64,000 nucleotides of DNA from NCBI GenBank assembly GCA_009760855.2, contig WPIO01000035.1, positions 1,458,501 through 1,522,500 of the forward strand, given 5' to 3'. Below, one piece after another: positions 26,645 through 60,653 of this stretch. This DNA comes from Cristatella mucedo (taxonomy: Eukaryota > Bryozoa > Phylactolaemata > Cristatellidae). The translations under genes were made by a program, and so were the position numbers. Below the pieces are notes generated by a model. It had not been told where the DNA came from. It saw only the letters and a list, made by a program, of their open reading frames with translations, and did not search any database. Each line of letters begins with the position of its first letter. Within the stretch, counting starts at the first letter, position 1.

Positions 26645-27088
26645 GGTTATGTCTATATGCCGAGCCGGGAATTATCACAGGCGGCTTTCGTATGGTGACA
26701 ATTAATCAAAGTTTTATTATCGAATGCCACTTTTACCTTAAATGGGCTAGACATATTACTCAGGTGACACTTCAATACAGAAGGCTGAATCAACCTTACA
26801 CTACACCAGCGGACCACGGGACTGGAACTCAGCAGATAACCTATTGGATTCAGTCACCTAACCGTGTAGTATCGTCCAAAGGAGAAATGTTCTTTTCATA
26901 TGCGATAGCTGGGAAGCCGATAAGTTGTGGAATATGGAACACTTTTACACAGGACTTTTACTGTGAGTTTCACCTGGGTCCGGCCACTACATACAATTCT
27001 GGCCTATACAAATGCATTTATCATTCAAACTGGCAATCCACTGAAATCCTGAACAGTGCAGGGGGATTCAATCCTATTTTAGTAATAG
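26645..27088 (+). CDS. Ig-like domain exon A of a large multi-exon gene
   Basis: A 444-bp internal exon (148 codons) with acceptor TTTAATTTAG and donor G|GTAAGC, phase 1 at both ends. The product looks like one secreted or extracellular immunoglobulin-type domain. There is an early Cys in FIIECHF (about residue 28), a strand-like VTLQYRR, and a late SGLYKCIY (Cys about residue 124), which is the S/D-G-x-Y-x-C signature of Ig F-strands. Extra cysteines at about residues 95 and 107 could form a second bridge. The Cys-Cys spacing of 96 residues is longer than usual for a V-type domain, and the usual Trp about 11-15 residues after the first Cys is absent (one lies 6 residues after). The frame is open over its full length among decayed repeats. 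The shape recalls the first Ig domain of invertebrate lectin-type immune proteins such as molluscan FREPs, but no fibrinogen or lectin domain is present here. The domain type is well supported; the gene identity is unknown. Confidence 0.7.
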
Positions 27089-29399
27089 GTAAGCATACTT
27101 AATTATTGCTTACTATTATTTTATCTGCAGATGATGGATTACTATTTTTACCATTATTAATCTTTACAATAATTTCCTTACAGAGCTCCTTCAATTTCCT
27201 TCAGTTAATATAGAGTTAACATCCTTTTACACATCTTATTTCCGATTTTACCTTGATGTTATGCGATAAGCTTAAAAGTAATCATAAATAAAAAATGGTA
27301 CAAAATAAAAACAAAATCAGCTAGTAGAGTACCTGAAAGTGAAGAGAACAATGTTTGTTAATATAATAGATTACTTTCTACGGCTTTTATCAAAACGTTT
27401 AGTTTGATCAGCCACAAGTAAAAATACACAACTCATCGGGGGGGGGGGAGGGCCAGTTTTGTGAGGAATCATTTGCAGGTTAATCGCTTTACTTACATAA
27501 AACTAAGGGAAGGGGTGTTGTGAGCTCTGTATTCAGTAAGTCAGATGCTTAAAAAGCTTAGATAACACAAGTATTATATTCAGGGATTAACGTGCCAGAG
27601 AGCAGGCTTTGGGGACTCCAAATTAAGTGTTGACCTTTACCCAACTTTTTCGTATGGCATTATGGCGTTCCACTCGTATCTTTGCAGTGACTGGGCTAAG
27701 GCTATTCTCAGATAAGGTACTCAAGATAAGATATGTTTAAAATAATTTGTGATGCACCTATTAGTCACTATTTATCAGCTAGCCGTCTTCCAGGGGTCCG
27801 TAAAAACCTTAGAGCATCATGAGTTCGACCTGTCAAAAGATAAGATCGGCTGTACAACCTATACAATTAACATTTTCAGAGTTCTGTAAGTCTGGTCAAC
27901 CCAGTAGATGTCTCGCTTTTTCCTCAGAATGGAGTACAATTTCGACGTTTAGTAGTTGCTTGGGCTCCCATCAAATCCACTGGGCATTCTTTTGCAAAGC
28001 AGGTCATTGACTGCCTATTTAATTCCGCCTGCTAGTTGTCCACTCATTTTAAAGAAACGGGATTCTTATCAGTGATCAAGTTTTCAAAGAGAAGTCGTAT
28101 GCATTTCTAACTAATCTAGATGCAGATGGCTCCATGCTCTGGTGGCTTTGTTTCTGAAACTACTTATCTGGTTTTTTCTTTCAGAACTTGTGGTCTGACA
28201 AGCTAGTACTAATGGTTGTTGTCGAGGTTCAAGAATTATTTGGCTATATGAATTGCAGCTTTATTTAAGTGCAACCATTTGGAAATGTTACTCACACGTC
28301 CTCATTAAAGGATATCTAGCTCCCAGTTAGGATGTACTAACCTTGATCTACCATTGTAAATCGGTATAGCCTAACGAGGATTTTATGAATAATTCAAATA
28401 CACTTGCATGTGCTTCAGACCTTAATTAAAAAAAGAATGCCTCAGCAAGCATCATCATTAACCAAACAAAAACCTGCCCCACCTGTTTCTTGACTGCCTA
28501 TATAAATTCTGTTTGGTAAAGTACGTTAATAGTAGTGCTCATATCAGTAGCCATGTCCTAAATCTCTTTGTAAATAATGATATCTTTCTGGCTGACCTCA
28601 TTGTGAGCCGGCTGTCATCTACGGTAATCGCTCAGTCTCGTCAACTGTTCTTGCTCTGTATCACTTGCAACGTACCACGGTGTATGGCCAGTGATATAAA
28701 TTAAAATCTCTGAACCAGTTAAAGTTATAAATCCGTCGTTAGTTCCCGTCTTTTAAATCTGCACCCAGACACGGCTAACAGAATCAGCGAACTCAAAATT
28801 TAAGCGAACGTAAACGGTAAAATCGCTCTTAGCAGCACGGTAACCAAGATTAAGCCACAAAAAATGATCGTAAATATGTTTTTCGATTATCGAAAGAGCT
28901 TCGAGAGATATGCCTTGTTAAGCAAAGGCTCGTAAGCTTTTTTTACAGTCTGGATTAAGCAAAGCTTGAGCTAAATTCCATGGTAGGCTTCCTTGTAGCC
29001 CTCACCAGAAGCTTTGAAAAACACGGGCTTCTGTTTCATTGAACAAACTAAAATTATGCCATTCAAACCAAACCCAGGGTGGATTTAAAAGACGGTAAAC
29101 AATGTGCTTGGAAAATATGCGGGTCTCACTTCACCTATAACAATGGCTATTCTAATTTTCAGGCTTCTTTTTTAAAGAAACCTGTAGGTATTTTGCGTAC
29201 TTCCCTAAAACTACATGCAACTAAATGAATTATGGTGCTGCAGCTGAAATTTTTCTTAAGGGACCCAAGGCTTGAAGGGATGAATCATCCAAGGTTTCTT
29301 CTTGACGTGTAGCTTCACAAGTTAAGTCAGTTAAGCTCCGAAAGTCTCCAAAACGCCATACCTCATCCGTTAATTGTCTTCCGAAGACCAGCGAAGCAG
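27089..29399. other. Intron after exon A, first part
   Basis: AT-rich intronic sequence with a run of G residues at about 27439-27448. Open frames at 27819-28010 and 28513-28704 lack splice sites and motifs that would support them. Traces of LINE-B may begin near 29000. Confidence 0.45.
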
Positions 29400-31000
29400 A
29401 GTAATAACTAAAATTTGTAATGCTTCTCTAAAAAATTTTGTTCACCTAAGCCTTTCATGCTGAACACAGCTAGATTGATATCTAAAAGACCTGCATTAGA
29501 TTTACATAACCTTGCAAACCCTGGCAAACATTCAACCTCCAACACCCAGTCTTAGGTATACATTTTTGTAAAATTATCTTGAAAAAGTCTAAAACGGTTT
29601 ATAGGGAACGGGGAGAAAAATCAAGTGCAATGAAATGATATTAGTTTCTAGCAGCCCCGCTCTATTGACACTGATTTCCCCCATGCAAAAAATAGGATTG
29701 TAGGTAGTGGGGATGACTGGGGTGTCGCTGCTTTAGCCCTGCTAGATCACTTGGTAGTGTTTAACATTATTCATTGTTAAATCTAGTATTATTCCCTTTC
29801 ATTCAAGCCACGACGAATTGAAGGATAGAGGACAATATCAGAATTAACAGAAGTGGCCCCACCGTGTTTAAAACGTTAATCAACAATTTGTTTTCGATCC
29901 GTGGCTTGAGAATGTTTGGCCTCTCCAAACAGGTCATTAACCTGGGGAGTAGAGCGAGAGTCGATAATAATGCACTTGATACAGCACCCTCAGAGAACTC
30001 AATCTCTTTCTAGGCGCTTTACATTTGATGCAATTAAATTGTGAGTAATAGTTCTCATCGGTTCAATGGCTTGTGAATTTATACTGAGCCTTCGTGTAGG
30101 CATAATTTAAATGAATGGGATCTGATATCATGTGTTTGCTGGCGAAACTCACATGACTTTCTACTCTAACCACTCGGGATCTGCTACGCTGATAGACTAA
30201 CTGAAAGCTGGCCTTCAAAACCTTCGATAATAAATGCAATAACGTTTCCTTAAATTCAAAAACGACAGATCCTTAACTGAAACTGATTATATACAGCTAA
30301 TGGGGGATATAATGAAAAACCTTTTTCTTCTAGTAGAAGGTGTTGTTGTGGGACCATTACTCCCATAACAAACTTGGAAGCCCTCTCTGTTCTTTAGATG
30401 ACCATTTCGTCCGATGTCTACCTAAGATTACGGACTAACTACCATGTGGCTTAGAAAACAGCTTAACTGTCTCCCTAATTATGTCTAGGGTATGTTATTA
30501 CAATTACATTGTGATTATGACACTAAAGAATTAAACATAGCCACAGCAATTAATAAGTCAAATGATAGCAAGGCTAATTGCGAATTTTCTTAAAGTTCTA
30601 CCGTGTTTCTCCTGAAGTGGTGCTAGCTTCATGGTAATCAACTAATTCAGAGTACAGTTTTTAAAATGATCATGAAGACCCACTTTCCTGGGGTCCGTCG
30701 TGTTTATCTAAAGAGCTTCTACGGTTTCAGCACCTTCCTACCCCCAAGTTCTCTATCATTAACAAATTACCTGTACCGTTATCCTATGTTAAGCCGATAG
30801 CAGCAGTAAATTGTGCTCTGCAGATCATTGAATGTACAGCTAAATTCCATAACCCATACATAAATGATTGTATCTAATGCTGCCGATAATTTAAAATCTT
30901 ATCCAGCATTTACAGTCTGCTACCTATATGCTAGTTACTAAATAAACGTTTTCCACCTTCAGCTATGCTTATAATTTGTTTATTAAAGGAGATACATTCG
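29400..31000 (+). mobile_element. Ancient LINE-B copy
   Basis: Highly diverged but collinear with LINE-B. Around 29725-29770 there is TTAGCCCTGCTAGATCAC, matching the ALALLD region. Around 30410-30520 it matches TCCGATCCCTATCCAAGATTAG onwards, and around 30680-30840 the RT C-terminus (GCTCTGCAGATCATTGAATG against GCTCTGCAGGTCCTAGACTG). It ends near AAAGGAGATACATT at about 30990. All frames are destroyed. Confidence 0.55.
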
Positions 31001-33156: not shown

Positions 33157-33642
33157 TCACAGGGACCCACTAAATGCTGTCCTAAATAGCTGTGTTTTTA
33201 AGTTTCTTTTAAAAGTGGTCAGGTCAGGGGATGTTCTCACGCAGGTCGGGAGGGAGTTCCAGGCTTTGCGAGCATACGAACCAAATACACGGTCTCCAAA
33301 GGATTTAAGGTTTGTACGAGGTATTTCTAGACTGTTGGACGCCGAAAAGCGGGTGGTACGATGCTTGGCCTGATGGGAGAGTATGTCGGAGAGATAGGCT
33401 GGAGCCATAGAATGAAGGGACCTAAAAGTGAGCGACAAAACCTTGAAGTCAATCCCTTGCTTGACTGGTAGCCAGTGCAGGTGGGCGAGAAGTGGAGTAA
33501 CGTAGCAACTGCGACGCTCACGACAGACAAGCCTAGCTGCAGAGTTTTGCACCAGCTGCAATCGCCTGATCGCACATGCTGGTAGGCCAATAAGCAGTGA
33601 GTTGCAGAAGTCGAGACTGGATGTCATGAATGCATGGACCAA
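33157..33642 (-). pseudogene. LINE-A RT C-terminal region
   Basis: 161 codons beginning at an internal Met (VHAFMTSSLDFCNSLL) and running through LVQNSAARLVCRERR, LHWLPV, FKVLSLTFRSLH, GDRVFGSYARKAWNSLP to FRTAFSGSL. It is the same region as 1932-2636. It belongs to the 3255-bp LINE-A and is one frameshift away from the upstream palm fragment. Confidence 0.85.
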
Positions 33643-33687
33643 CTTGGACGAGGTATTCTTATCTAAACAAGCCCGAATGTTAGCAAT

Positions 33688-34101
33688 TTAATGAAGCTGA
33701 AAATAAGGGGTCTTGACTGTGGAGCTGATAGGGTCGTCCAATGAGAGGTCGCTTTGGAATATGACACCTAGATTTCGAGCTGATTTAACTGGAGATATGC
33801 TGGCAGAGCCAATTTTGAGAGTCAGCCGGTCCATTCTCTGAATCTCACTGGGTTCGCCCATAACTAGAAAGTTAGTTTTATCATTGCTTAGTTTTAGAAA
33901 ATTTGCTGCCATCCATGTGCGGATGTCATCAATGCATACAGCAAGTGAGTTTAGAGAATTTGAGGTGCTCGAAGGGAGGGAGGGATCAAAGCACTGGTAC
34001 AACTGAGTGACATCCGCATAGAAGTGAAAGCCTAGATTGTGCTTGGCAATCACATCAGCAAGAGGGAGAGTATAAACCATGAAAAGAACCGGACCTAGCA
34101 T
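33688..34101 (-). pseudogene. LINE-A RT palm with YADV instead of YADD
   Basis: 137 codons. LGPVLFMVYTLPLADVI precedes the catalytic loop, where FHFYADVTQLYQCFD places Val (codon GTC) at the second catalytic Asp (34009-34020). The change would abolish polymerase activity. The copy at 3482-3811 has the same Val at the same position. Downstream are AANFLKLSNDKTNFLV and ARNLGVIFQSDLSLDD. Confidence 0.85.
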
Positions 34102-34524
34102 GGAGTCCTCAGGTACTCCATATTTCAGAGGTACTTCAGAAGATCTATATTTGTCTATTCACATCAATACTCTGGAGTCTCCCACTGAGATAGGACCTGA
34201 ACCACTGCAGAGTAGTGCCAGTGATGCCCAGTCGAGATGAGAGGCGCTCTAGAAGAACTTTGTGATCGATGGTATCAAAAGCTGCCAAACATGATCAAGC
34301 AAAACAAGCAGAGACACTCTACCCATGTCTGCATTCCTAAGTAGGTTGTTGTATACCCTAAGCAATGCTGACTCTGTGGAGTGATTAGCTCTTAAGCCAG
34401 AATGGAACTTACTAGCAAGGTGTGAGGTTTCGATTTATGAGTTCAGCTGGTCAGCCACGACCCGTTCAGGTGTCTTTGATAGGAACGGTAATAGGGCGAC
34501 TGGGCGGTAGTTGTTTAAGTTCTC

Positions 34525-35019: not shown

Positions 35020-36174
35020 TTAGTACGACCTACAGTAGTCTTCATATGCCTGTCGATGGACAGTTAGTCTGGATCTTTTGTATGCTTTTTCAAGCTTTTG
35101 TTTTGTAGACTTGGCTAGTTTAATATCTGTGGTAAACCATAGGCTGTCTGGGCGGGGGCGCACAGTGTGCTTTGTCAGAGGTGCGAAATCTTCGAGGTTG
35201 ACAGCTAGTGTCGTGTTGTAGCTATCTACCAATGATGTCAGATCGGAGGGAGGACTGAGCAGCAGAGGTGAAGCAGATATTCTCGCACCGACAGCATCGA
35301 TGTCAAGGGTGTTGAGGTTTCGCGATTCACAGGTTATTTTAGATGAGGATGTGGGCACACACTGTTGATTAAATGAGATCTGCATGTGGTCAGATAAGCA
35401 TGATTTGTTTATAATTGGTGATGACAATGTGCAGTTGTATGAGAAAATCTGGTCGAATGTGTGACCCTTGGTTAGGGTAGGGCCCTGCACATGAGCCATA
35501 AGAGACAATGAGTCAGTCAAGGCACGAAATTCGGTGCTGAAAGCGTCAGATAAGTTATCAAAGTGAACGTTGAAATCACCCATATCGAGGAAGGATCGAT
35601 TTCTTGCACACAGAATCGAAATGAGATCAGAGAAATCTGAGATAAAGTAGGATTTGGTACCTGGTGGGCGATAGACTACAGCCACTATCGGTAGCTTGTT
35701 TTCGGGTGAGACCAGGACAATTGATTCAAAAGACTGCTTCGAGGGTACCGCAAATGGCTTGAAGTTGAATTTCGAGCGCACGATAAGAGCAACTCCACCT
35801 CCAGTTTTGATCGATCTAGGGGTGTGAAAGAACGTGAAACCAGATGGAGTAGCGTCTTTAATTGTCGGGCAGTTTATCGATTTCAGCCAAGTTTCAGTTA
35901 GGGCGAGCAGGTCGATACCATTTTCAGAAATAAGGTCGTTTATTACTAGAGGTTTATTGCACATTGAGCGAGGATTCCAAAGGCAAGCGTTAAGTCTGGC
36001 CGATGAAGTTACAACAGGCCTGATGACCACTAAGTTAGAGAGATTTACAGTGATGCATGTGGGGGAGCGTACTGAGCGGTTCGAGACAATGCTAGGAATA
36101 CCAAACGAGCGGGTACTCAGCTGGAAGCTCCTGCCCAACGAGAGGCGTCTGAGCTGGCGGTTCCGGCCACTGCG
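35020..36174 (-). pseudogene. LINE-A AP-type endonuclease, intact frame
   Basis: About 385 codons belonging to LINE-A. Motifs in order are LNACLWNPRSMCNKPLVI (Asn of the first motif), LALTETWL (catalytic Glu), VVYRPPG, MGDFNVHFDNL (the D-x-N motif) and SDHMQISF (catalytic SDH). All expected catalytic positions of an exonuclease-endonuclease-phosphatase fold are present, so this domain could still nick DNA if expressed. The open frame actually continues upstream to 36213, but those first residues derive from the LINE-B host element. It ends in a stop at 35020 before the RT frame starts. Confidence 0.85.
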
Positions 36175-37640
36175 GAGGTAGTGAGTAGTACAGAAGCAGT
36201 AGTCCAGGACCATTGAAAAGGATGAGCCACTGTCGGCAGTAGAAGAGAAGTTGTCGTTGCATAGGAATTATGGAAGAGAGTTCCACAACCTTGGACTGCC
36301 AGAGCTAAAGCTTTTGTGAGCAACGGTCTGTAAGTGGAAGAATAGAACAGCTACTTCAGTGTCCATGCAGAACCTGAGGGCGCTGAAGTGGGTGAAACTG
36401 ATGCAGCAGTTCAGCTAGATACGATTGAGCCAAGCAGTCGCAGGCCTTGTCGGTTAGCGTAAGAACTTTGCTCTGTAACTTTTGATTAAGTGGCAGCCAT
36501 CCCAGCTCTCTTAGCCAAGGATACACGAGATCAGGGCTCTCGGACTAGAAAACTAACCTCTCAGCCATATTAATAACAACCTGCAGTGGCCTACTTACTT
36601 TATTTGGTAGCCCAGACAGAAGGGAATTGCAGCAATCAAGACGAGCCAGAACTGAGGAGCTAGTTAATTTACAGCAAACCACTGTGGAATACAGCTCCTA
36701 ATCTTGGATAGGGATTGAAGTTGATGGCAGGAATTAGATGCAGTCTTCTGAATGAAGATTTTGAAATTAAGTTGCTGTCAAAAAAGGCACCAAAATTTTG
36801 AGCGCATGCTGATGGTCTCACTACAGCAATAATAATTAGAAGAGCAAAGCTTCTTAATCCAGCCACATGCTCAGGGTGTCTTATGCACAGCAGTTCATTT
36901 GTATAGTCATTCGGTCTCAGGTAGTTTTCTGACATCCAGAATCTAATGTCGAAAAGGCAAGCATTCAGTTTATTAGTTGCTGCCGAAGACACCGGCAGTT
37001 TGAATGGCAAATGCAGCTGAGTATAGTAAGCATAAAAGGGATATCATTTTCAATGGGCCATAATCACTTATCCCAGGGGTTGAGTTTAGTTGGAAAACTG
37101 CAAGCGACCTAGGACGGACCGTTGAGGGACTCCACAGATGGCCAAATTCGTGTGTTAGACCTGACCCCAGCACGACACGCATTGAACACCGTCAGACAGA
37201 TCGGCATTTTCAATCGCTCAAGTAGAACTTCGTCACCAATGGTGTTGAAAGCAGCTGGTAGATCTAGCAGAGCTAGGGCTGTGATATTATCTTCATCGTT
37301 GCCACATGAAATGTCGTAGTTAACATGGAGGAGGGCAGTTTCAGTGGAGTGCTGCTTCTTGAGCACTGACAGAAAAGCTTCTGTCATTTATTTCATTTTA
37401 ATATGTGCAACCAGCTGCTTAGCAGAAGGTTTTTCAAGAATCTTCGACAAGAAAGGAAGAAGGGAAACACAGCAATAGTGTACTCTGACCTCGGTCTCTA
37501 ATCCAGACTTTTGATATATGAGTCTAACGATGGCCAATTGCAAAAATTTCAGTATAGGGTCTTCAAGAGACGAGCTATTTTTACTAGACCATATTAAGGT
37601 AGCCACATCGCATTCAGAAACCTCGGAAAACATTTAAAAA
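36175..37640 (-). mobile_element. LINE-B host element, RT part
   Basis: Resumes the LINE-B begun at 32445 with GAGGTAGTGAGTAGTACAG and continues through the RT (36669-37010, 37109-37387, 37388-37633 fragments, e.g. TALLHVNYDISCGNDED and ALALLDLPAAFNTI). Frames are broken. Similarity ends near 37640. Confidence 0.8.
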
Positions 37641-38770: not shown

Positions 38771-39151
38771 ACAAGCCATGTGTTCGGATAAGTCAAAGTG
38801 CTCAGCAGGAGAATCAGTGGTTTGGAGGCCTTGCCTACTTTGCCTGCTGTGAATGCTTATCTTGGGCATCCGCCGATGTTTATAAAGCAATCGTGAAATG
38901 GGATGCCTTCGGACCTATATCGGAGGATCCAAACAATGGTGAACTTGTCGACCATGGAAGTAGTCACAGTCGCCATATTGGAAAACCTGAGTGCAGCCAT
39001 AGATCTACTTTCATTTTGCCTCACTGGACAAAGACTGGAAGTGAAATAAAACTTGGTTGTACAGTAGACGTGTCGTACAAGCTGTATACAAATCACAGCC
39101 ATCCTAAATTTTTATTACCATCTCAGGAAATACTTAAAAGAATAAACCAAG
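38771..39151 (+). CDS. Cys-rich Ig-like exon B1
   Basis: A 381-bp internal exon (127 codons) with a strong pyrimidine-rich acceptor (TTTTTTTCCTTTATAG) and a weak donor AAG|GTGCAT, phase 1 at both ends. The donor position is fixed by alignment to B2, whose donor is canonical. Six cysteines lie at residues 4, 26, 27, 29, 75 and 97, with tryptophans at 17, 32, 44 and 86. The pattern YFACCEC, IVKW (Trp 18 residues after Cys26) and STFILPHW...IKLGC fits a C2/I-like Ig domain with an added N-terminal Cys pair. An open frame continues to a stop after the donor (39168), so a retained intron would truncate the protein early. It is paralogous to exon B2. Function unknown; an extracellular recognition or adhesion role is an inference from the fold. 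Confidence 0.72.
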
Positions 39152-40869
39152 GTGCATTTGACCTCTAAGCCATAAGTGCTTAACGCTGCCTACTCATTTT
39201 TCAGATTGTGCTATGAGTAGTAGAACGAACCCTTTAGTGAATGACTTCACAGGTAGTGAATAGGGAGAGAAAAATTATTCCCAAGATTTAGTCCTGCAAC
39301 GATGTAAGTTATTTTGTTGGTTTACAACTTGTTTTCTTGTTTTCAATTTGTGTGATTTAATGCCATTTTGATTGTTGAATCACTGATGTTTAAACTACCA
39401 AGAACTTGTATGAAAATAAAATAATCAGTGCTTGTAAATATTTTAGCTGAGCGCCGAAAGACTGAACTATGAAGCAATACATTGAAAGTTTGCAAATTTT
39501 ATAATTGCACGATTATGTCGGATCGCTTTTTTACTCATAATGAGTATGCAATTCGTAGTATGTCTAAAACATTCTGTTTGTGATCGGTTTAAAAAAATTC
39601 CGTATCTAAAATGTTCCATTTGAGAAGTTGTGTGTTTCTGCTACATTGCTTAATCTCTCTTATAAATAACCCAAGATGTGGTTACTAACAACCAAAACCG
39701 TCCACTATAGTCAAGAAAAGAAGGAACACTACGTTTCAGATGATTTTTCGCATCTAATTGTTTATTCATGGTTTTTAGCTTCTAAGCAATAATGATAAAT
39801 TACCTCTCCGATCTTCAAGCCACAAGGCATATCATCGCGTCATCGTTATAGTTCCTGCACAATATAATCAAGGAACAATGAAACCCATTTAAATTATGAC
39901 CTTGATAAGCACACAAATTCGCTTGGTATCTTTTAGATATCAGTGTTAGCATAAAGGTTAAAAGCATGAGATATATCACACAGCCCATTCAGAAGTATAT
40001 ACTTTCCACTGCCAAATAAGCTGAATTAAGTTTAAAAATTATTATAGGCCAAGTCTCGTATCTCGCAGCAACAGTGATGAAATGTTTTAGTAATAGTATC
40101 ATTAATATTGCCTCAATAAAATCCCCAGGCTACGATAGTAGAAACGCCTTCTACAACAGATGAAGGGTGTGAGGACAGTTTCCTATGCTTTAACCGATCT
40201 TTCATTAGACAAGCCCCTTAACTTCTGACCAGGCACCACAAGCACTGCATTGAATTTGGTTTTCTCAATATGTTGTCTTCAACAAGCTTTATTTGCATGG
40301 TCTTAGATCTACTTGAAAAAGTTTCCTTTGAATCTTTAATGTATTCCTCCCTTGGAAATTCATAATGGTTTCTCTATTCGGCTGGCCTATTTTGGAAATA
40401 TGAAGCTCTAGACCGTGTAACACTGAGACTCTCAATTAAGTAGGGACGGTAGTTAAAACAAATATGTACTCATTCTCGCTATTTTTGCTAATGTAAAGCA
40501 CCATTAGAACATGCAAGATATCTTGCTTGAGAGCTCGATCTTATTTTTAAAGTCATGCACTGTAACATCAATTTTTGTAACATGAGTTTCTGAAAGTATA
40601 GAAGTTCTGTAACAATCCCGAAGGAAAAAAAATTTCAAAAAAATCTGTTGTGATAACTTTAGTCAGATATAGGCAATGTGAGGGCAATGCAATACAGTTG
40701 TCAGCGACAATATGCTTACATAGAACAATCGATACTGCATACCTAAAATAAATCATTATGATTGTTTAAAATTATGTGCAGTAAAATCCTTAAATTCAGA
40801 TTATGTATTCCTAGTTTAAGTTTGAATTGGCAGCTGAATGGGAGCTCAGTACGTAAATTTTCCAGGCTA
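39152..40869. other. Intron after B1, no repeat recognised
   Basis: The first 70 bp include ATTGTGCTATGAGTAG, similar to ATTGTGCTATGGATAGG just after exon B2, so the flank may have been duplicated with the exon. Otherwise AT-rich with nothing recognisable. Confidence 0.45.
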
Positions 40870-40970
40870 AAGCTGCTCGATACGACGATGCTCGACCCCA
40901 CGACCTCAGCCAGGATGCAATGCAGGAGCTGGTGTTAACTTGCTTACATTTCTGCCACTGGTCTAGTCTG
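40870..40970 (-). mobile_element. SINE-like remnant
   Basis: On the - strand it carries AGACCAGTGGCAGAAATG, GCTGAGGTCGTGGGGTCGAGC, similar to the SINE-B head. No LINE-A-like tail is detectable. Confidence 0.4.
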
Positions 40971-41814
40971 CGATTGCAAGTGAAACGAGGATTTTGTAGA
41001 AAAATACAACACGTTAGAGATCTAGTGAAGCAGCACTTATCAAGACTAATTAAAAATTTAAAAGTTATGAGACCTCTTTCTAAGTAATTCAAAAACTTGA
41101 TAATTATTATACCTTTGTCATAGTAATTAAAATTATCTCATATTGAGGACACTACATTAGCTGATCTCTCACGTATTGACGTTAATTTTTTGCAGCCTTA
41201 ATACTTTAGATGCAAAAGCTTTGCCTCTCATTGTACTTAACTAGTAAATATAGCAACATCACAGTCAGCTCTAAAGGATCTCGGGATTACATATCCTTGT
41301 GCTCGGCCAATCTCTTTCAGACTTTAGCAACACAATACTTTGAAGATTTTATGTTATGAATATTATTAGGCTAATGAATGCCCAGCTGCAAAAAATTACA
41401 CAGAAAGGAGTGACGAACTTCTAATAAATATCTAATTCCCGGAAAAATGCATGCGTGCAAGTACATGCACCAAATCACAACTTTACCGACTAGTGGATGC
41501 TCAGTGACAATCAGTAATGGATTATGTCATTTTTACTCCTTTAATAATGAATGAGAGCAGGATCGGCTAGAATAAAAGTGTTCGACGAATATTGTTCAAT
41601 AGATGTCTTACTTTCATGAAGGAAATGGTAAACTTATTTTAAATTTTATGAGATACTACTGTTCAGTTCAAATGAGATACAATTTCCTATTACAATGCTA
41701 TGGAACAAATCAGAAGATATATCTATAAAAATATGTAATGAAAGTGAATCAGTAGTCTAGGGGCCATTACCTTGGCAAAAGAAGTGAGTTATCATTATAA
41801 TAACATTAGTACAA
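40971..41814. other. Intron, no feature recognised
   Basis: AT-rich, nothing recognisable. Confidence 0.4.
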
Positions 41815-42645
41815 TTATTATTACACTCGATGAAGCACCATCGGAGAACTCAATCTCTTTCTAGGCACTTGAAATCCGTTCCAAATGAAACATGATCTAA
41901 CGGTGGGTGAAATCGTGTTCGATAAACAGCATGAATAACGAAGTTAAGGGTGATGTTGGCAGGGTCAGCATGCAAGTGTGGTTATAGGCAGCATGCAACC
42001 GAGTCAGAATGCATAAGCACATACAGGACCAATCACAGGGACCTGCTAAATGCTGTCTTAAATAGTCGAGTCTTAAATTTGTTTTTAAAAGTAGTAATGT
42101 CAGTGAATATCGTCACACAAGTCGGGAAGGCGTTCTAGGCTTGGGAGTGCAATGACTAAATGCATGGTCTTCAAAGAAATTTTCAGTTTGTATGAGTTAT
42201 AGGTAAGGAGCTAGATTCCGAAATTTGGATGGTGCGATAGTAGGCCTTGCAGTGGAGTAGATGTGATAGGTAGGCTGCAGCCAAATAATGTAAACCTTGA
42301 CGTCAATACGTTGTTTGACTGGTAGCCAGTGCAGGTCGGCGAGAAGTGGTTTGATGTGGCAACATTGAAGCTCACGACGGACAAGCCTAGCTGCAGAGTT
42401 TTGCACCAGCTGTAAGCACCTGATTGCACAAGCCATTAGGCCAGCAAGGAGTAAGTTACAGAAGTCGGGACGGGATGTCACACATGCAGGGAGCAACTTA
42501 GACATGGTATCCTTATCTAAACAAGCCCGATTCTTGAAATAGTTATCTAGCTGAAATTAGTCAGACTTGACTGCTGAACTGATGTGGTCATCCAACGAAA
42601 GGCCACTTTGGATTATGTCACAGAGTTTGTGCAGGTTCAATAGGA
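41815..42645 (-). mobile_element. LINE-A 3' fragment, decayed
   Basis: (ATT)/(TAA)-type tail, then the terminal hairpin region (GAAGCACCATCGGAGAACTC), 3' UTR and RT C-terminus (42197-42505, 42211-42429, with TSRPDFCNLLLAG and LHWLPVKQRIDVK). Frames are broken. It is followed directly by a second LINE-A in the same orientation. Confidence 0.8.
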
Positions 42646-43105
42646 GATAATAATAATAATAATGCACTTGATAAAGCTCTCTCAGAGAACTTAATCTCTC
42701 TCTAGGTGATTTACATTTGCTGCCAAGGGAAATGCAATTGAATGGTGAGTAATATCATGATTGATAAACAGCGTGAACAACATGGTTAGGGGTGACATGC
42801 ACAGGATCAGCATGCAAATGTGGTTAGTGGCAGCATGCACAGCGTCAGCACACATAAGCACATGAAAGACGAATCACTGGGTCCCACGAAATGGTGTCCT
42901 AAATAGGTGTGTTTAAAATTTTTTTTTTAAATGTGGTCAAGTCAGGGGGTGTTCTGAAGCAAGTCGGGAGGGAGTTCCAGGCTTTAGGAGCCCAAGAACT
43001 AAACGCACGGTCTCCAAAGAATTTGAGCTTTGTACGAGGTACTAGTAGACTGTTGGATTCCGAAAAGCGGGTGGTACGATGCTTGGCCTGGTGGGGGAAA
43101 CCAGT
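42646..43105 (-). mobile_element. LINE-A 3' fragment
   Basis: (TAA)n tail at 42646-42662, hairpin, 3' UTR and a short RT C-terminal open frame (42899-43165 includes FPHQAKHRTTRFSES and FGDRAFSSWAPKAWNSLP). It abuts the preceding LINE-A in tandem. The boundary at 43105 is the 5' truncation. Confidence 0.8.
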
Positions 43106-43474
43106 TGGTAAGAAAGATGCGGTCAGATATTTACCAATCAGCTCATCAAAAGTTATTAAATGCATAGGAGAAACTCTAGTGATATACTTGTATGTAATTG
43201 ATATGCTCTTCTGGAGCTCACAGCCTCAGCTATTGTAGAATGGTTTGATAGAACTCGTAGGATGTGGCCGTTGGGCAACTCAGTTCAGTAAGAGGTGGTG
43301 CTCGTATGAATGGAATATACGGACTTACTTCAGGCTAGCACATGTTCACGAAGACGGAGTCGGTTGGTCGACAGAGGGGGATTCAATTCCTTTGCATGGA
43401 GATGGAGTGACTACTGTTAGTCCCATGCTGTAAACTATTTATTTCCTGCTGGCAGCAACAATTTGTATGATAAT
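43106..43474. other. No feature firmly recognised
   Basis: Unique-looking. GGGGGATTCAATTCC at about 43375-43390 resembles a Pol III B-box, but no A-box or SINE body is evident. Confidence 0.35.
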
Positions 43475-43640
43475 AATAATACATTTGTATAGTGACCTGA
43501 GTTAACTCAAAAATCTCTTCCTCGGCACTTAAAAATTGCTGTAAGGGAAGCATCATTAAATGGTTAGTGGTAGCGTGCTCAATGACAACAAGCACAACAT
43601 AATTAGAGGTGGCATACAAAAGGTCAGGATGCAAATATTG
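43475..43640 (-). mobile_element. LINE-A-like 3' stub, divergent subfamily
   Basis: Starts with ATAATAATAATACATTTG and TATAGTGACCTGAGTTAACTC, related to the LINE-A terminus but with a TATA/GTGACC form also seen in SINE-B tails. The 3' UTR follows, diverged. Confidence 0.55.
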
Positions 43641-43750
43641 TTAAAAAAAATGCTAGATGATTTAACAGCCTCTTTTGTATGGATACGGATGGGTCTTGGA
43701 GGCTATTGCCACTGCTTACAGCGGCAATAAAGGATCGCCCACGCAATAAT
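43641..43750 (-). mobile_element. SINE-C 3' part
   Basis: On the - strand it reads GGGCGATCCTTTATTGCC, GTAAGCAGTGGCAATAGCC, TACAAAAGAGGCTGTTAAATC, matching the SINE-C body. The tRNA-like head is missing; a LINE-A tail follows at once. Confidence 0.65.
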
Positions 43751-43756
43751 GATATT

Positions 43757-44553
43757 GACAATAATAATAACACTGCACTTGATAAAGCGACCTCAGAGAA
43801 CTCAATCTCTTTCTAGGCGCTTTACATTTGCTACAAAAGGAACGTGGTTAAATTGGTGAGTAATATCATGCTTGCTAAACAGCATGAATAACATGGTTAG
43901 GGGTGACATGCACAGGGTCAGCATGCAAATGCAGTTAGTGGCAGCAAGCACAGTGTCAGCACGCATAAGCACATGAAGGGCGAATTACATAGACCCACTA
44001 AATGCTGTCCTCAATAGATGTGTTTTTAAGTTCTTTTTAATTGTGGTCAGGTCAGGGGATGTTCTGACGCAGGTCGAAAGGAGTTCCAGGCTTCGGGAGC
44101 ATACGAGCTAAATGCACGGTCTCCAAAGGACTTGAGGTTTGTACGAGTTATTTGTAGACTGTTGGATTCCAAAAAGCGGTTGGTACGATGCTTGGCCTGA
44201 TGGGGTAGTTTATCTGAGAGATAGGCTGGAGCCAAAGAATGAAGTGACCTAAAAGAGCGTGTCAAAACCGTAAAGTCAATCCGTTGCTTGACTGGTAGCA
44301 AGTGCAGGTCGGCCAGAAGTGGTGTAAGGTGGAAACTTGCTATGCTCACGACAGACAAGCCTAGCTGTGGAGTTTTGCACAAGCTGCAATCGCCTGATGG
44401 CATATGCTGGTAGGCCAGTAAGCAGTGAATTGCAGAAGTCGAGACGGGATGTCACGAATGCATGGACCAACTTGGACGTGGTATCCTTATCTAAATAAGC
44501 CCGAATTTTAGCAATGTTATAAAGCTGAATATAGGCAGATTTGACTATGGAGC
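43757..44553 (-). mobile_element. LINE-A 3' fragment
   Basis: Tail, hairpin (AAAGCGACCTCAGAG...CTAGGCGCTTT), 3' UTR and RT C-terminus (44047-44403 and 44276-44470, with SRLDFCNSLLTGLPAYAIR). One frameshift splits the frame. It ends about 10 bp before a 0.7-kb direct repeat. Confidence 0.85.
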
Positions 44554-44563
44554 CTATATGTAC

Positions 44564-45267
44564 AGGAGTACAAACTTATTTATGCATAAGTTTAAATATG
44601 GTATCACTTGTACTTATTACGTTATGGTTTAATCCTAACAATTGAGATATTATAGAAAATGATATAACCATAAACCTGATTAAAGAATGAAGATGAGACC
44701 AAGCTTCGTGAATTTACCTGCTATCAACTTTCGAGGCTGCAGAAAACAATAATGTCATTGAATGATGTCATCTCAATAAACAGCAAATGGTTGTTGCTTG
44801 TGTGGTAGCAAGAATGTTCAAATCGGTGAACATAAAACCGGCCAGGCGGTTTTACTTGGCTACAAGGTTATGTAAGCATAATACTAGAAGGTTAGTTTAC
44901 ATGACACCTATTAAGATTTAAGATATATTCAGCTTAGAAATAGAAGTTTTCCTATTTGAAACTACTGCGGGAGTTTTTAATAAAAAAAATTACACTGCAA
45001 CTGTTGATGGCAGATCATATTGAGTATCTTTAGAACAGCTCGCTAACACTAGTCCCACTTGAAAATATAGATGGAGCGCTGCAGCAGGCTCCCCTACTGT
45101 AAACTGAAACCAAGACTATGCAATCAGCATGTTTTTCTCCGAAATCTGCTCGAATGTTAAAGTTACTCAAAATTTAATCTAAGTGGAGCAACTTGAATAA
45201 AATCACACAAATACAAAACTAAAAGTACTTTGGTTGATGCAAATTGGCACTCTAAGAAGTTCCGAGC
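44564..45267. repeat. 0.7-kb direct repeat, copy 1
   Basis: Matches 46201-46918 along its whole length with scattered differences, from AGGAGTACAAACTTATTTAT to GCACTCTAAGAAGT(T)CCGAGC. It has no TG...CA ends, no terminal inverted repeats that I can see and no coding frame. It is separated from copy 2 by a LINE-A fossil and 0.4 kb of other sequence. Confidence 0.8.
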
Positions 45268-45270
45268 TAG

Positions 45271-45810
45271 TTCCAAAGCTACCTTTCATTAAACCACCAA
45301 ATCAGCTCCTCTATCAAGTCTGCCCACTTGCTGCTACATGACAGTGCTAATGTTCGTGATTGCTTTGAAAAGAATATCACATCTAAATTCGTCCATGCAT
45401 TCGTGGCATTTTGCGTCGACTTTTGTAGGTCACTGTTTGCTGGTTTACCGGTCTGCAAAACCAGGCACCTAGCTCTTCTGTCTTTAGCATTGCAGTTGAC
45501 ACAGCGAACCACCAATTGCCGATCTTTACTGGTTCTTAATCAAGAGGAACGTCGATTTAAAAGTTCCACCACTTACTTTAAGGTCTCTTAATTCTCTGGA
45601 TCCAGCCTAAATTTCAGAAAAAATCCACCCCTCCACTAGGCGAATAATCTTACTACCGGCTGCTGTGATTCTACTCGTATAGCTATGCCTCGTAGGAAAC
45701 TTCAAACCGTTGAGCCCCATGCGTTTAGTTCCTATACCTGAAAAGCCTAGAAGCCACTACCTAGGCTCGTTACAACGTAACTTCACATGATGACAATATT
45801 AAAAGCATAA
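45271..45810 (+). mobile_element. LINE-A + fossil between the direct repeats
   Basis: Collinear with LINE-A from CTTTCATTAAACCACC to the RT C-terminus (KFVHAFVAFCVDFCRSL within 45328-45591). Strongly decayed, tail not visible. Confidence 0.6.
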
Positions 45811-46200
45811 CGCCAAAATGTTAATTGCAGTGTGAGTTGGCCCATTGGGACTCTTTAGTTTGCATGTACCTCATTACTTTGCTTGCTGCTTGCGAACATT
45901 CCCACCAAGCACGTGGTAATGCAGTTAATGCAAATCTGAAAAGAGCCAAGGAATACTTTCAGATCTGTTTAGTTTTTGCAAGCAATAGTCGCATTCCAAA
46001 CGAGAGCTCACTCAAGTAAACCACGTGTGCATCAAAATTTGCCAAAAGCAAAATTAGAAGCTATCGAAATGCTTTCGAAAATAAACTTTCTGTTAAAGCA
46101 TGTTAGGCAACTCGGCATTCATAAGAGAAGCAGCTAAAGCGGCTAGAGCGGTCGCTCTAGTTACAGTACAACATGGATAGGTTTCAGTTGATTGATGTAA
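45811..46200. other. No feature recognised
   Basis: Short unique-looking stretch. The open frame 45825-46019 has no supporting motif. Confidence 0.35.
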
Positions 46201-46918
46201 AGGAGTACAAACTTATTTATGCATAACTTTAAATATGGTATCACTTGTACCTATTACGATAGAGTTAAATCCTAATAATTAAGATATTATAGAAAATGCT
46301 ATAACCGTAAACCTGATTAAAGGATGAAGATGTGACCAAGCTTCGTGAATTTCCCTGCTATCAACTTTCGTGGTTGCAGAAAACAACGATGTCATTGGAT
46401 GAAGTCATCTCAATAAACAGCATGTGGTTGTTGTTAGTGCGGTAACAAGAATATTCAAAATGGCAAAATATATAATATAAAATATAAAACCGGCCAGGGA
46501 CTTTTACTTGGCTACAAGGCTGTGAAAGTATAATACTAGAAGGTTAGTTTACCAGACACTTATTAGGATTTAAGATATATTGACGATAGAAATAGAAGTT
46601 TTCTTATTTGAAACTACTCTGAGAGTTTTTATTACAATAATTAAATTGCAACTGTTGATGGCAGATCATATTGAGAATCTTTAGAAAAGCTTGCTAATAA
46701 TAGTCGCGCTTGAAAATTTAGATGGAGGGCTGCAGCAGGCTCCCCTACTGTAAACTGAAACCAAGACTACGTAATCAGCATGTTTTTCTCCGAAACGTCC
46801 TCGAATGGTAAAGTTACTCAAAATGTAATCCAAGTGAAGCAGCTTGAATAAAATCACAAAGATTAAAAAGTAAAATTACTTTGCATGGTGCAAATTGACA
46901 CTCTAAGAAGTACCGAGC
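46201..46918. repeat. 0.7-kb direct repeat, copy 2
   Basis: Second copy of the 44564-45267 unit in the same orientation, offset about 1.64 kb. It contains a small insertion of an ATATAATATAAAAT-type run absent from copy 1. Confidence 0.8.
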
Positions 46919-47866: not shown

Positions 47867-47883
47867 TAAAAATATATATGAAC

Positions 47884-47915
<32 letters not shown>

Positions 47916-47922
47916 TATATAT

Positions 47923-47992
<70 letters not shown>

Positions 47993-48019
47993 ACGCATAT
48001 ATATATATATATATAAACA

Positions 48020-48096
<77 letters not shown>

Positions 48097-48148
48097 GTAT
48101 CTATCTATCTATTTATCTATCTATCTATATATATATATATATATATTG
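47867..48148. repeat. (TA)n / (TATC)n microsatellite
   Basis: About 280 bp of nearly pure alternating TA with small TAAA, CACACA and TATC interruptions. It ends 138 bp upstream of exon C. The Tyr/Ile-only open frames across it are artefacts of the repeat. Confidence 0.95.
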
Positions 48149-48286: not shown

Positions 48287-48592
48287 AAAGCCCCACGGTT
48301 AAAGTTACAATTATTTCTGAATCTAAAACTCTGTGGACAGTTCGAGTCGGCTGTGTGCTGCCTGATATTTCTCCAAGGAACTTTATTAAAGTAACCTGGC
48401 TACTAAACGGGAGCAATTTCAACGAAATGGTACCTGAAGAATCTACTTTCGATACTAAAGTTGTTCTGATGAGCACTTTAGAATTCAGATTGGTACCGGG
48501 GAATCACTCTATTCAATGCTTAAGAGATGTGAATATTAAAGGTGTGGCTCAACTGAGATCTGACGTGCTAGGAGTGTTCTTCCCACACCCAG
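48287..48592 (+). CDS. Ig-like domain exon C
   Basis: A 306-bp internal exon (102 codons). Acceptor CATAATTTGTAG is pyrimidine-poor; donor CCAG|GTAAGA is strong. Phase 1 at both ends. It is the most canonical Ig domain of the set: SPTVKVTI at the start (A strand), Cys23 in VRVGC, Trp38 in IKVTWLLNG (15 residues later), and STLEFRLVPGNHSIQC with Cys78, giving 55 residues between the cysteines, as in C2/I-set domains. The domain has only this Cys pair, unlike the six-Cys exon B. N-linked glycosylation motifs NGS and NHS are present. It lies between the B1 and B2 exons, and all junction codons in this gene begin with G, so B1-C-B2 joins in frame. Function unknown. Confidence 0.78.
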
Positions 48593-50196: not shown

Positions 50197-50973
50197 TTAA
50201 GCAGGAGAGTTTTGTATAGCCCACTCACAGCCTAAGCGGCTTTCGGTACCCATTCGGTAGCCAACAGACTTCGTCTCACACAACAAAGAGAAAGTGGGAA
50301 TCATAGCAGAGTTAGGAGAGAAGTTGAGGTAGTGAGTAGCATAGAAGTAGCAGTTCAGGACCACTGAAAAAGATGTGCCAAAGTCGGCAGTTGGAGGGTA
50401 GATGTCGTTGCTTAAGAATTGTGGAAGAGCGTTCCACAGTCTAGGACCTGCAGAGCTAAAGCTTCTGTCGCCAACTGTCTTTAAGCGGAGGAATGGGACA
50501 GCTAATTTATTGTCCACACAGGACCTGAGGGCGCGAAAAGGCTGAAACTGATGCAGCAGTTCAGCTAGGTACGAAGGAGCCAAGCCGTGGTGGGCCTTGT
50601 GGGTCAGCCTAAGAACTTTGCTCTGTATCCTTTGCTCAACAGGCAACCATCCCAGCTCTTTCAGCAGAGGTGACAGGTGCTCAAACCGCCGGGACTTGAA
50701 GGCCAGCTTTGCAGCCATATTCATTGTCCACTGTAGTGGCGTAATAGCTTTCTTTGGTAGCCCAGCCAAAAGGGAATTACAATAATCAAGCCGAGACAGA
50801 AATAAAGAGCTAGTTAACATGTTTACAAGCCACTGTGGGAGACAGCTTCTAATCTTGCATAGGGATCGGATGTGATGGCTAGCTGTAGAGGCAGTCTTCT
50901 GAATGAAGCTTTTGAAATTGAGGCAGCTGTCGAACACGACACCTAAATAACGAGCACGTGGTGAAGGTCGCAC
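50197..50973 (-). pseudogene. LINE-B RT C-terminal region, intact frame
   Basis: 258 codons, uninterrupted. Landmarks are ARYLGVVFDSCLNFKSF, LSRLDYCNSLLAGLPKKA, LGWLPVEQRIQSKVL, HHGLAPSYLAELLHQF and FSSAGPRLWNALPQFL, as in L2/CR1-type LINE ORF2. It runs to the very end of the coding region (stop at 50197), about 50 bp before the element's 3' end, so LINE-B has an unusually short 3' UTR. Confidence 0.85.
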
Positions 50974-51051
50974 AATAGCATCACCTATTTGAACAGCAAA
51001 GCTATTTAATCCAGCAATACGCTTAGGGTGTCCTATGAGCAGCAGTTCGGC

Positions 51052-51351
51052 TTAATCGTCATTTAATTTCAGGAAGTTTTCCGACATCCAGGATTGAATA
51101 TTGGCAAGGCAAGCATTCAGTTTCTCAGTTGCGGCAGCAGATTCCAACGGTTTGAATGACAAATACAACTGAGTATCGTCAGCATAGAAGTGATATCCTA
51201 TTCCATGGGGCTTAATCACTTTTCCCGGAGGTTGTGTATAAATGGAGAACAGCAAAGGACCGAGTACAGACCCTTGAGGGACTCCACAGGTGACCCTTCT
51301 CATGTCTGAGACCTGACCCCCACACGACACGGATTGAACACGATCAGACAA
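51052..51351 (-). pseudogene. LINE-B RT palm with intact YADD
   Basis: 99 codons with [17 protein letters not shown] (RT motif 4) and [14 protein letters not shown] (motif 5, both Asp present), then [23 protein letters not shown] stop in place of the following codon (a TAA that reads as CGG/CAA-like in relatives) separates it from the C-terminal frame. Confidence 0.85.
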
Positions 51352-52061
51352 GTATGATTTAAACCACGCCAGTCCAGTGCTTCGTTTGCCAGACCGATCG
51401 TTGTTCTCAATCGTTCGAGCAGAACTTCGTGATCAATGGTGTCGAAGGCAGCAGCCAGATCTAGTAGAGCTAGGGCAGTGACATTCCCGTCGTCGTTGCC
51501 ACGTAGAATGTCATCGTTAACACAAAGGAGAGCAGTTTCAGTAGAGTGCTGCCTCTTGAAACCTGATTGAAATGTTTCTGAAATTCCATTATTTTCAATA
51601 TGTTCAACTAGCTGCTTAGCAACAATTTTTTCAAGAATCTTTGATAAGAACGGAAGAAGGGAAACTGAACGATAGTTTGCTAGGACCTCTGTGTCTAATC
51701 CAGGCTTTTTAAGAATAGGTCTAACGATTGCAGATTTGAAGGACTTGGGGACGATCCCTTTTTCCAAAGAAGCATTAAAAATATTGGTTACGGCAGGGCA
51801 AAGTTGGTCTGCAAGTGAAGACCACAGAGATGAAGGCATCGACTCTTCAGGAGAAGAGCTCTTTTTGCTAGACCTTATTAAGGCAGCCACATCACAGGCA
51901 GAAACATCGGAGAACCTTTTAAGAAAGGTCACAGGTTGAGGAACGGCGATTGCTTTGGTCGGAGGGGGCTTTATGGAGGCACGAATGTGCACAGTTTTTT
52001 CAGTAAAGAAGGCTGAAAACTTTTCGGCTGAGCCCTTTATATCTGGGGAGTCAGACCTCAC
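51300..52061 (-). pseudogene. LINE-B RT N-terminal half
   Basis: 253 codons. SPDIKGSAEKFSAFF, then SSPEESMPSSLWSSLADQL, KSAIVRPILKKPGLD, NYRSVSLLPFLSKILEKIV, FKRQHSTETALL and [17 protein letters not shown] give RT motifs 1-3 in the usual order. A frameshift near 51350 separates it from the palm. The + copy at 23353-23679 aligns with its first third. Confidence 0.85.
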
Positions 52062-52260
52062 AGCATTGGCCAGTAAATGGTTTACTGTCTTATAAATCTG
52101 TTTAGTGTCCGACTGGCAGGAATTCAGTTTTCTAATGAAAAAAAAGCCCTGGCTTTTTTAAGCTTTCGGGTGTAAACTCGAAGGAAGTCTTTAAAATTGA
52201 CTAGGTCTGCCTCAGACCCCGATTTCTTGAAACGACGTTCCAGCGTGTGCTTAACACGGC

Positions 52261-55790: not shown

Positions 55791-55859
55791 CTAATGGTTC
55801 TATGGGGAGGCGTTAAAGTATGAAGACTTCAAAATATGTGAAAGAATGAAGATTGCTAA

Positions 55860-57560: not shown

Positions 57561-57785
57561 CGGGCTTGTAAAGCAAGTAACGTTATTAAGCTTAGTTGAA
57601 AGCTCAACAGAAATATATATTATCTCGACTGGCAATGTGCCGTAGCCTGATAATCTCTCCCAGCAAAACTGACCAAGGCAGAGGGCACCGCACAGTTAAT
57701 CCTTAAATGAAGAGCCTGGGATGGTAGCAACCAGGCGGTGCCAATCCTTTCAGTTGACTTTGCTTAAAAGTAAAAACAAATCTGG

Positions 57786-57850
57786 CTAAGAAATCTAAAC
57801 TAATCTAAAATCTAAATCTAAAATCTAAATCTAAAAAATCTAAATCTATA
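57786..57850. repeat. (ATCTAA)n-type simple repeat
   Basis: A run of CTAAAATCTAAAT-like units. It could be a SINE or LINE tail of an unrecognised family, since GC-richer sequence lies just upstream. Confidence 0.7.
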
Positions 57851-60281: not shown

Positions 60282-60653
60282 ATAAGCCATGTCTATGGAC
60301 TGAGGAAGCAAAGAATCAACTGCCTCACTGGCTTGAGGGTTTTTCTTACTTTGTTTGCTGCGAATGCTTGGACTGGGCATCAAGTGACCATTACCAAATA
60401 GTAGTAAGGTGGATAACTTCTGGACCGTTGCATAACAGCCCTAACTCAGCTGAATCCATGAGGCAGGGAGATAATTATAGCAGCAAAATTAGAAAGCCAG
60501 AGTGTAATCTGAGATCCACTTTCATTATTCCCCAGTGGAAAAAGAATGAAACTAAAATCAAAATATGGTGTTCAGCTGAAGTGAGAAAGCGGTTATCGCC
60601 TCATGTTGCAGTCACTATACAATCGGATGACATACAAAAAGAAGTTAAACCAG
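60282..60653 (+). CDS. Cys-rich Ig-like exon B2 (paralogue of B1)
   Basis: A 372-bp internal exon (124 codons), acceptor TTTTCGTTGCAG, donor CCAG|GTATGT, phase 1 at both ends. By hand it aligns with B1 without gaps over residues 1-97, at about 44 identical positions. Cys 4, 26, 27, 29, 75 and 97 and Trp 17, 32, 44 and 86 are all in identical register. Conserved blocks are YFxCCECLxWAS, KPEC and RSTFI. The last 25-30 residues differ freely (basic here, with RKRLSP). It is a duplicated domain exon that has been kept open, which suggests selection on the fold rather than the surface. NETK is a possible glycosylation site. The next exon, possibly a second C-type domain, would lie beyond this window. 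Function unknown. Confidence 0.72.

Follow-up and report, generated by a model that had tools for sequence, protein, structure and literature searches.

The window analysed here is the whole 64,000-nucleotide stretch of Cristatella mucedo DNA that occupies positions 1458501-1522500 of one contig (C288) in a genome assembly of 572 Mb and 688 contigs; this single assembly was used for all comparisons. It carries four exons, A to D, which most likely belong to one gene (gene 1), since their relatives recur in the same order along C288. The exons, in window coordinates, are as follows:

26645-27088, + strand: exon A, 444 nt, open, bounded by AG/GT, phase 1-1; predicted N-terminal (membrane-distal) immunoglobulin (Ig)-like domain with the motif GLYKC
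38771-39151, + strand: exon B, 381 nt, open, phase 1-1; first six-Cys domain, with a CCxC motif
48287-48592, + strand: exon C, 306 nt, open, phase 1-1; predicted constant-type Ig-like domain, Cys22-Trp37-Cys77
60282-60653, + strand: exon D, 372 nt, open, phase 1-1; second B-type six-Cys domain

Direct reading of all four exons bore out an earlier note on this DNA, which had described them as open, AG/GT-bounded, multiples of three in length and phase 1 at both ends. Each was preceded by AG and followed by GT, contained no stops and was open on the + strand solely in the frame entering with two bases of a split codon (phase 1); the joined product of exons A-B-C-D was also free of stops. That all junction codons start with G, as the note had pointed out, is true but is a trivial result of phase 1 and the donor consensus G/GT. 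Exons A, B, C and D encoded 5, 6, 2 and 6 cysteines, respectively, and the translations confirmed both the six cysteines of exon B and the long Cys-Cys spacing of exon A, where Cys27 and Cys123, 96 residues apart, are likely the Ig pair. A point missed earlier was that exons B and D are paralogues, with 40% identity (E 1e-35). Counting both strands, 22 stretches of the window lay between an AG and a GT and were open in phase 1 for 300 nt or more, compared with 1-10 in each of 30 order-1 Markov simulations, and open reading frames (ORFs) of long interspersed nuclear elements (LINEs) probably contributed part of this excess. With 22 such stretches in the window, openness alone is weak evidence, and the case therefore rests on paralogues. 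Three full paralogues of exon A were found, 51-53% identical and with a near-identical splice-site context: the A exons of genes 1-4 were all preceded by aatttag/GGT and left with gtaagc, and close copies had their splice sites at the same positions. Only phase-1 sites were searched at loci outside the window; phase there is given by construction, and the test is that homologous AG/GT positions exist.

Genome matches to exons A, B and C were counted at E ≤ 10. B-like matches numbered 35 with exon B as the query and 39 with a membrane-proximal relative, and C-like matches 29 with exon C and 37 with a second query. Ten matches were A-like, five with E < 1e-6 and five with E 0.03-1.7, two of the ten being halves of one broken exon. 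When the matches on C288 were merged by hand, 68 entries were obtained, comprising 6 A, 30 B, 25 C (one weak, E 0.055) and 7 transmembrane (TM) exons, of which 5 A, 26 B, 20 C and all 7 TM entries were without an internal stop. The resulting array spanned 1.424-2.104 Mb (~680 kb), all on the + strand:

C288:1423967-1431608, + strand: broken A/B remnants, stops inside
C288:1485147-1542871, + strand: gene 1, intact-looking; the window exons are its start
C288:1568526-1571241, + strand: broken B/C copies (1568526, 1570936), stops inside
C288:1590197, + strand: TM exon behind broken B and C exons, an array remnant
C288:1626454-1702434, + strand: gene 2, intact-looking
C288:1738505-1804621, + strand: gene 3, intact-looking
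C288:1848124-1924745, + strand: gene 4, intact-looking
C288:1944362-1966349, + strand: broken B/C copies, stops inside
C288:1998812-2043388, + strand: gene 6, intact-looking; A match at E 0.24
C288:2068043-2104017, + strand: gene 7; A exon not detected

The broken A, B and C exons between intact-looking genes represent birth-and-death of array members. A short A-like fragment at C288:1562270-1562404 (L062; 24 profile positions, E 0.0003) lay about 6 kb before the broken B exon at 1568526 and is possibly the remnant first exon of that broken copy. The layout was A-B-C-B-B-C-B-C-TM in genes 1 and 6 (8 ectodomains) and A-B-C-B-B-C-B-C-B-C-TM in genes 2-4 (10 ectodomains), with introns of ~2-13 kb across the array. 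In five intact-looking genes on C288, exons A, B and C followed each other on a single strand, which agreed with the proposal of a single gene, and the presence of 8 or 10 ectodomains among paralogues, with the frame intact at the junctions looked at, agreed with the idea that the array can be extended without frame damage. The earlier note had held that homologues placed in unrelated genes, or containing stops, would speak against it; the exons recurred together, and stops were seen in some of the broken copies nearby. The main argument is carried by the five strong A matches and the order of the array. Outside C288, the order A, B, C was found again on C376, once on each strand, and on C111; the A matches there were weak (E 0.058, 1.4 and 1.7), and two of them (L069 and L072) had the motif GPA(T/I)...GIYRC. 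C254 carried B-C. More distantly related B- and C-like exons formed a second cluster at C299:1856021-2009256 on the - strand.

The remainder of gene 1 was sought by a profile search of the window and the next 40 kb. In window-extended coordinates, the exons beyond the window are:

64895-65338, + strand: B-type open frame, gene 1
73968-74348, + strand: C-type open frame, gene 1
77689-78144, + strand: B-type open frame, gene 1
81100-81468, + strand: C-type open frame, gene 1
83916-84371, + strand: TM/tail exon, a 152-aa open frame in a stretch well conserved between genes 1 and 3

The downstream regions of genes 1 and 3 aligned in two blocks with 91% identity. The tail exon of gene 1 encoded a hydrophobic helix, VYYGVPAACVAILIGYVAIYIYYINSKK, followed by a Ser/Thr-rich tail; the exon before it ended in G/GTGAGT and the TM exon began after TAG with AT, showing that this junction was again in phase 1. 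There were nine genome matches to the TM/tail exon. Seven lay on C288, where each formed the end of its gene, and the other two (E 0.25 and 6.9) were probably due to chance. All seven C288 tail exons had a 19-residue hydropathy maximum of 1.87-2.20, and their tails were 110-113 residues long with 25-35% Ser + Thr. A single TM helix C-terminal to the ectodomains was thus present in seven of seven, and only order and phase connect it with the ectodomain exons. Summing the exons gives a predicted gene 1 product of ~1,100 residues. Extension beyond the window, which the earlier note had proposed as a way to find a signal peptide and a C-terminal domain, supplied a predicted TM helix and tail at the C-terminal end. 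The best-placed signal-exon candidate, at 25639, was rejected, being broken by indels in genes 2 and 4. DNA searches with window positions 8732-10045, 15918-18228 and 8601-8830 returned one stretch homologous upstream of gene 3, with no convincing frame:

8601-8790, no strand assigned: 83% identical to C288:1718728-1718912, 19.6 kb upstream of gene 3 exon A; the first ~110 bp are a dispersed repeat and no conserved coding frame was shown

An assignment as a receptor of the inhibitory type, with an immunoreceptor tyrosine-based inhibitory motif (ITIM), was considered from LQYQGL in the tail of gene 1 and LRYQGL in that of gene 3, but was rejected; in the remaining five tails this Tyr was replaced by His, Phe, Asp, Asp or Gly. 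The motif search also matched VTYAGV/VTYVGV and IGYxA(I/L) beside or inside the helix, and these were discounted.

When the C profile was compared with the PDB, it matched IgG/IgA constant chains with a whole-chain E of 4.6e-12 on a four-domain chain, the best single stretch having an independent E-value (i-E) of 0.028. Pfam C1-set was matched by 9 of 15 C members at E ≤ 1 and exceeded its 21-bit cut-off in one of ten relatives scanned singly (L049, 22.4 bits); window exon C (E 0.001, 19.8 bits) was below that cut-off. The best PDB match of the A profile was LILRB1 (whole-chain E 6e-7, best single stretch i-E 0.05), around the GLYxC motif, and Pfam 'ig' was matched by four of five A members (best E 0.0026). 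An Ig core together with a profile match was found in both domains (Cys...Trp...Cys in C; Cys...DxGxYxC-like in A), although the matches were modest and covered part of each, suggesting that A and C are distantly Ig-like. In the 20 members of the B family, W16, G19, Y22, C25, C26, N54, C74, S78, C96 and S117 were invariant. A comparison of B with C in hhalign paired the Cys, Trp and Cys positions but did not link the two domains (probability 0.6%, E 0.089), and we infer only from the Cys-Trp-Cys spacing and the alternation with C that B may be Ig-like; judged by sequence, no significant relative of the family was found in either Pfam or the PDB. The earlier opinion that these are not ordinary Ig domains held up in the profile searches, in which A and C appeared distantly Ig-like and B went unrecognised.

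Genes 1 and 3 have the appearance of mosaics whose parts were joined within introns. Exon identities were compared by exon type, with the broken copies L015, L022 and L042 included as they stand; the comparison leaves out the fourth exon (B) of genes 2-4 and C3 of genes 2 and 4, and takes the last C from genes 1 and 3 only. For introns, 1.5-kb flanks were compared, apart from the region downstream of gene 1. Exons A and B of gene 1 were nearest to those of genes 2-4, with identities for B of 0.89-0.92 versus 0.55 for gene 6, and the first-B loci of genes 6 and 7 and the A locus of gene 6 gave no DNA match around exons B and A of gene 1. From exon C onward, the nearest relatives of gene 1 were gene 6 or gene 3 (C, D, next B, C3 and last B; best values 0.93-0.99). 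The values against gene 6 were 0.93 for C, 0.94 for D (303 nt compared) and 0.96 for the next B, compared with 0.61-0.68 for genes 2-4; over the exons of genes 2 and 4 that were comparable, the values were 0.61-0.75. Around exon D, the match to gene 6 continued through the flanks (86% over 2.2 kb), whereas genes 2-4 matched at the exon alone. Gene 3 was nearest to genes 2 and 4 from A through the third B (0.88-0.97) and to genes 1 and 6 in C3, last B, last C and tail (0.92-0.99; last C versus gene 1 only), its C3 protein being 85-89% identical to those of genes 1 and 6 and 52% identical to those of genes 2 and 4. For gene 1 the junction was bracketed as follows:

40258-46633, no strand: interval expected to contain the gene 1 mosaic junction, inside the B-C intron

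Homology to genes 2-4 (76-82%) was traced to 40257, and collinear homology to gene 6 (88-89%) ran from 46634, the first gene 6 base compared; a gene 6 match at 44985-45267 was a second copy of the same segment and was not used for the bracket. On the gene 6-like side of this interval, Tandem Repeats Finder located an (AT)n microsatellite at 47872-48146 (137 copies), which ended 140 bp before exon C. An intronic junction keeps the frame because the exons are phase 1-1. Both marks of an exon-shuffling module, symmetric phase 1-1 exons (four of four in the window) and apparent exchange between paralogues at introns (genes 1 and 3), were found, and gene conversion of blocks would look the same.

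Exon A was the fastest-evolving domain and diverged at about the pace of its flanking introns. Some automatic exon ends were shortened (e.g., L017, L021, L022, L026, L037, L051, L053 and L054), and both identities and the ratios of nonsynonymous to synonymous divergence (dN/dS) refer to the stretches as extracted. The nucleotide identity of exon A to genes 2-4 was 0.74-0.76 versus 0.59-0.79 for the flanking 400 bp of intron, the 0.59 coming from one pair in which the upstream flank of gene 3 carried other, repeat-like sequence. Exon B, at 0.89-0.92 versus 0.77-0.79 for its flanks, was clearly better conserved. Between gene 1 and genes 2-4, dN/dS in exon A was 1.16-1.56, the pair at 1.56 falling to 1.35 by pairwise alignment. 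It was 0.56-0.66 in the first B (0.56-0.61 for gene 1 versus genes 2-4), 0.64-0.95 in the middle B, 0.24-0.68 in C, 0.31-0.51 in the third B and 0.37-0.66 in 20 of 21 tail pairs. The lowest values, 0.07-0.16, were obtained for the last (membrane-proximal) B of genes 1, 3 and 6, and three further pairs gave 0.25-0.46. Constraint thus differed strongly between the tip and one stalk domain, with no smooth gradient. Positive selection on exon A is suggested but not proved.

The explanation that we consider reasonably likely is that C288 encodes a family of single-pass, multi-Ig recognition receptors of an invertebrate, and that the four window exons are the 5' half of gene 1, minus its signal-peptide exon. 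Gene 1, the first intact-looking copy of the tandem array, would encode a type I surface receptor with eight extracellular domains (A-B-C-B-B-C-B-C), one TM helix and a Ser/Thr-rich tail. All of its exons would be spliced into one transcript, and the product would be displayed at the cell surface, where domain A, farthest from the membrane, may bind a varying ligand in an immune or self/non-self role, with the B/C units forming a stalk. Paralogues may exchange sequence within the long introns, through unequal recombination or conversion, and so diversify the array; phase-1 symmetry makes such events frame-safe, and fast change in exon A would add to the diversity. A bolder form of this proposal is possible but offered tentatively: a previously undescribed polymorphic self/non-self recognition complex, in which a new Cys-rich domain B alternates with antibody-constant-like domains and whole-domain exons are shuffled through introns behind a positively selected tip. 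Polymorphism is a hallmark of recognition loci.

Several results weigh against the receptor explanation or parts of it. The excess of dN over dS in exon A was not significant (275, 257 and 223 of 300 codon bootstraps), the three comparisons share gene 1, and among genes 2-4 the ratio was 0.68-0.98. The gradient was uneven, with values of up to 0.95 in the middle B and 0.68 in C3, and one tail pair had a dN/dS of 1.08, at very low dS. No Ig match was found in Pfam among the 20 B members (the matches were to unrelated families, each by a single member, best E 0.0073), and the PDB gave the B family one unrelated match at E 0.48. The A matches in gene 6, C376 and C111 were weak. A signal-peptide exon was not found, the ATG-hydrophobic-GT candidates in window 1-26640 being unconserved or unconvincing, and an ITIM-like LxYxxL was confined to two of the seven tails, those of genes 1 and 3.

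The array might instead hold tandem genes for adhesion or cell-identity molecules of a neural or epithelial, Ig-CAM-like kind, with the fast-changing domain A providing homophilic specificity rather than immunity; such a family would equally have a single-pass multi-Ig ectodomain, tandem paralogues and tails without a conserved immune signalling motif. We regard this as rather unlikely; mosaic genes, pseudogene remnants and an exon A that diverges about as fast as introns would be more in keeping with an arms-race family than with conserved adhesion molecules. Reproductive proteins, too, typically diverge fast at the N-terminus and duplicate in tandem, as is seen here, but nothing in the data spoke positively for a rapidly evolving gamete- or reproduction-related surface family, which is improbable. 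That the exons are relics or parts of unrelated genes is more improbable still: broken copies with stops do lie nearby on C288, but the exons of gene 1 were all open, splice sites were conserved, the order was repeated in paralogues, and comparisons of exons B, C and D gave dN/dS values below 1. Least credible is a secreted FREP-like lectin with Ig domains followed by a C-terminal fibrinogen domain, an analogy drawn in the earlier note; in its favour are Ig-like exons in an animal that the mitochondrial code marks as an invertebrate. After the last C came an in-phase exon for a TM helix and tail, relatives of which were present at seven gene ends, and it is this exon, not a fibrinogen domain, that follows the last Ig exon, although no fibrinogen profile was run over the locus. 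FREPs, as characterised in the cited account, have one or two V-type IgSF domains plus fibrinogen (PMC7588048), compared with the eight or ten ectodomains found here.

Other features were observed in the window and the genome. LINE-type fragments on both strands filled the introns, including 35020-36267 (-), 50197-52157 (-), 33157-34158 (-) and 1899-2636 (+) among others; endonuclease and reverse-transcriptase matches were obtained in two of five ORFs scanned, the remainder being assigned by resemblance. A 154-aa open frame at 17364-17828 (-) had no Pfam match, and the surrounding stretch was partly repeated elsewhere in the genome. A 1.36-kb repeat (L061:7384-8743), 94-95% identical at no fewer than 39 places and with opposite-strand partial matches in the neighbouring stretch, has the sequence character of a young, abundant, fold-back-like element. 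On the mitochondrial contig C688, COX1 (15615-16955, L073) read AGR as Ser, AAA as Lys, ATA as Met and TGA as Trp, which we take to be code 5; this code speaks against a vertebrate, tunicate, echinoderm or cnidarian source. The ORFs of this contig suggest the order cox3-atp6-cox1-nad3 on one strand, which is unusual, the names other than COX1 being a reading of the ORFs; ARAGORN found no tRNA on it. COX1-like fragments were also present on C166, C83, C549 and C299.

By analogy, the C288 array may work like clustered single-pass recognition families such as PTC1/PTC2, Alr and KIR/LILR; membership in any of them is not claimed. KIR and LILR are single-pass multi-Ig receptors in gene clusters, and paired inhibitory/activating receptors have a conserved ITIM, or a charged TM residue with a short tail. 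The C288 genes resemble KIR/LILR in being clustered single-pass multi-Ig receptors by prediction and in the LILRB1 match of the A profile, but differ in lacking a conserved ITIM, in their other domain types, in introns of ~2-13 kb and in coming from an invertebrate; with LxYxxL in two of seven tails, and tails of 110-113 residues, they do not have the build of paired KIR/LILR-type receptors. In owl-monkey KIR, recombinant fragments that cover entire Ig domains were reported (PMC3819253), although the authors of that paper saw no sign of broad exon shuffling in their trees and regard alternative splicing as the main way in which new receptors arise. PTC1 (GRC) and PTC2 (450 kb) of Biomphalaria are likewise described as invertebrate clusters of single-pass transmembrane genes, in which the extracellular parts are highly diverse and haplotypes differ by gene gain and loss (PMC7494358, PMC10875847). 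Compared by description, a regular alternating array of 8-10 Ig-like domains is a feature of C288 that the cited excerpts do not describe for PTC. The Alr family of the Hydractinia allorecognition complex is also described as clustered single-pass IgSF (Ig superfamily) genes, many of them likely pseudogenes, with divergent extracellular domains (PMC11067881), and on that description it resembles the C288 array. Alr is cnidarian, and the code 5 reading of COX1 in this genome (AGR=Ser, TGA=Trp) is unlike that of Cnidaria. The likeness to FREPs, as described in PMC7588048, is limited to Ig-type N-terminal domains in an invertebrate family, since FREPs combine a fibrinogen domain with one or two IgSF domains, in contrast to a TM helix and 8-10 domains here. 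Among the literature matches listed, no title or abstract opening described the B/C family; subscription literature was mostly outside the search, so we do not claim that the family is unpublished.

If the receptor explanation is true, the C288 array would be a further instance in which a clustered and rapidly evolving receptor family of Ig type originated in an invertebrate. It would also hold a readable record of how receptors are made, by exchange of whole-domain exons through long introns. The array offers concrete loci for measuring polymorphism and expression, together with a domain family, B, for which sequence searches of Pfam and the PDB gave no significant relative.

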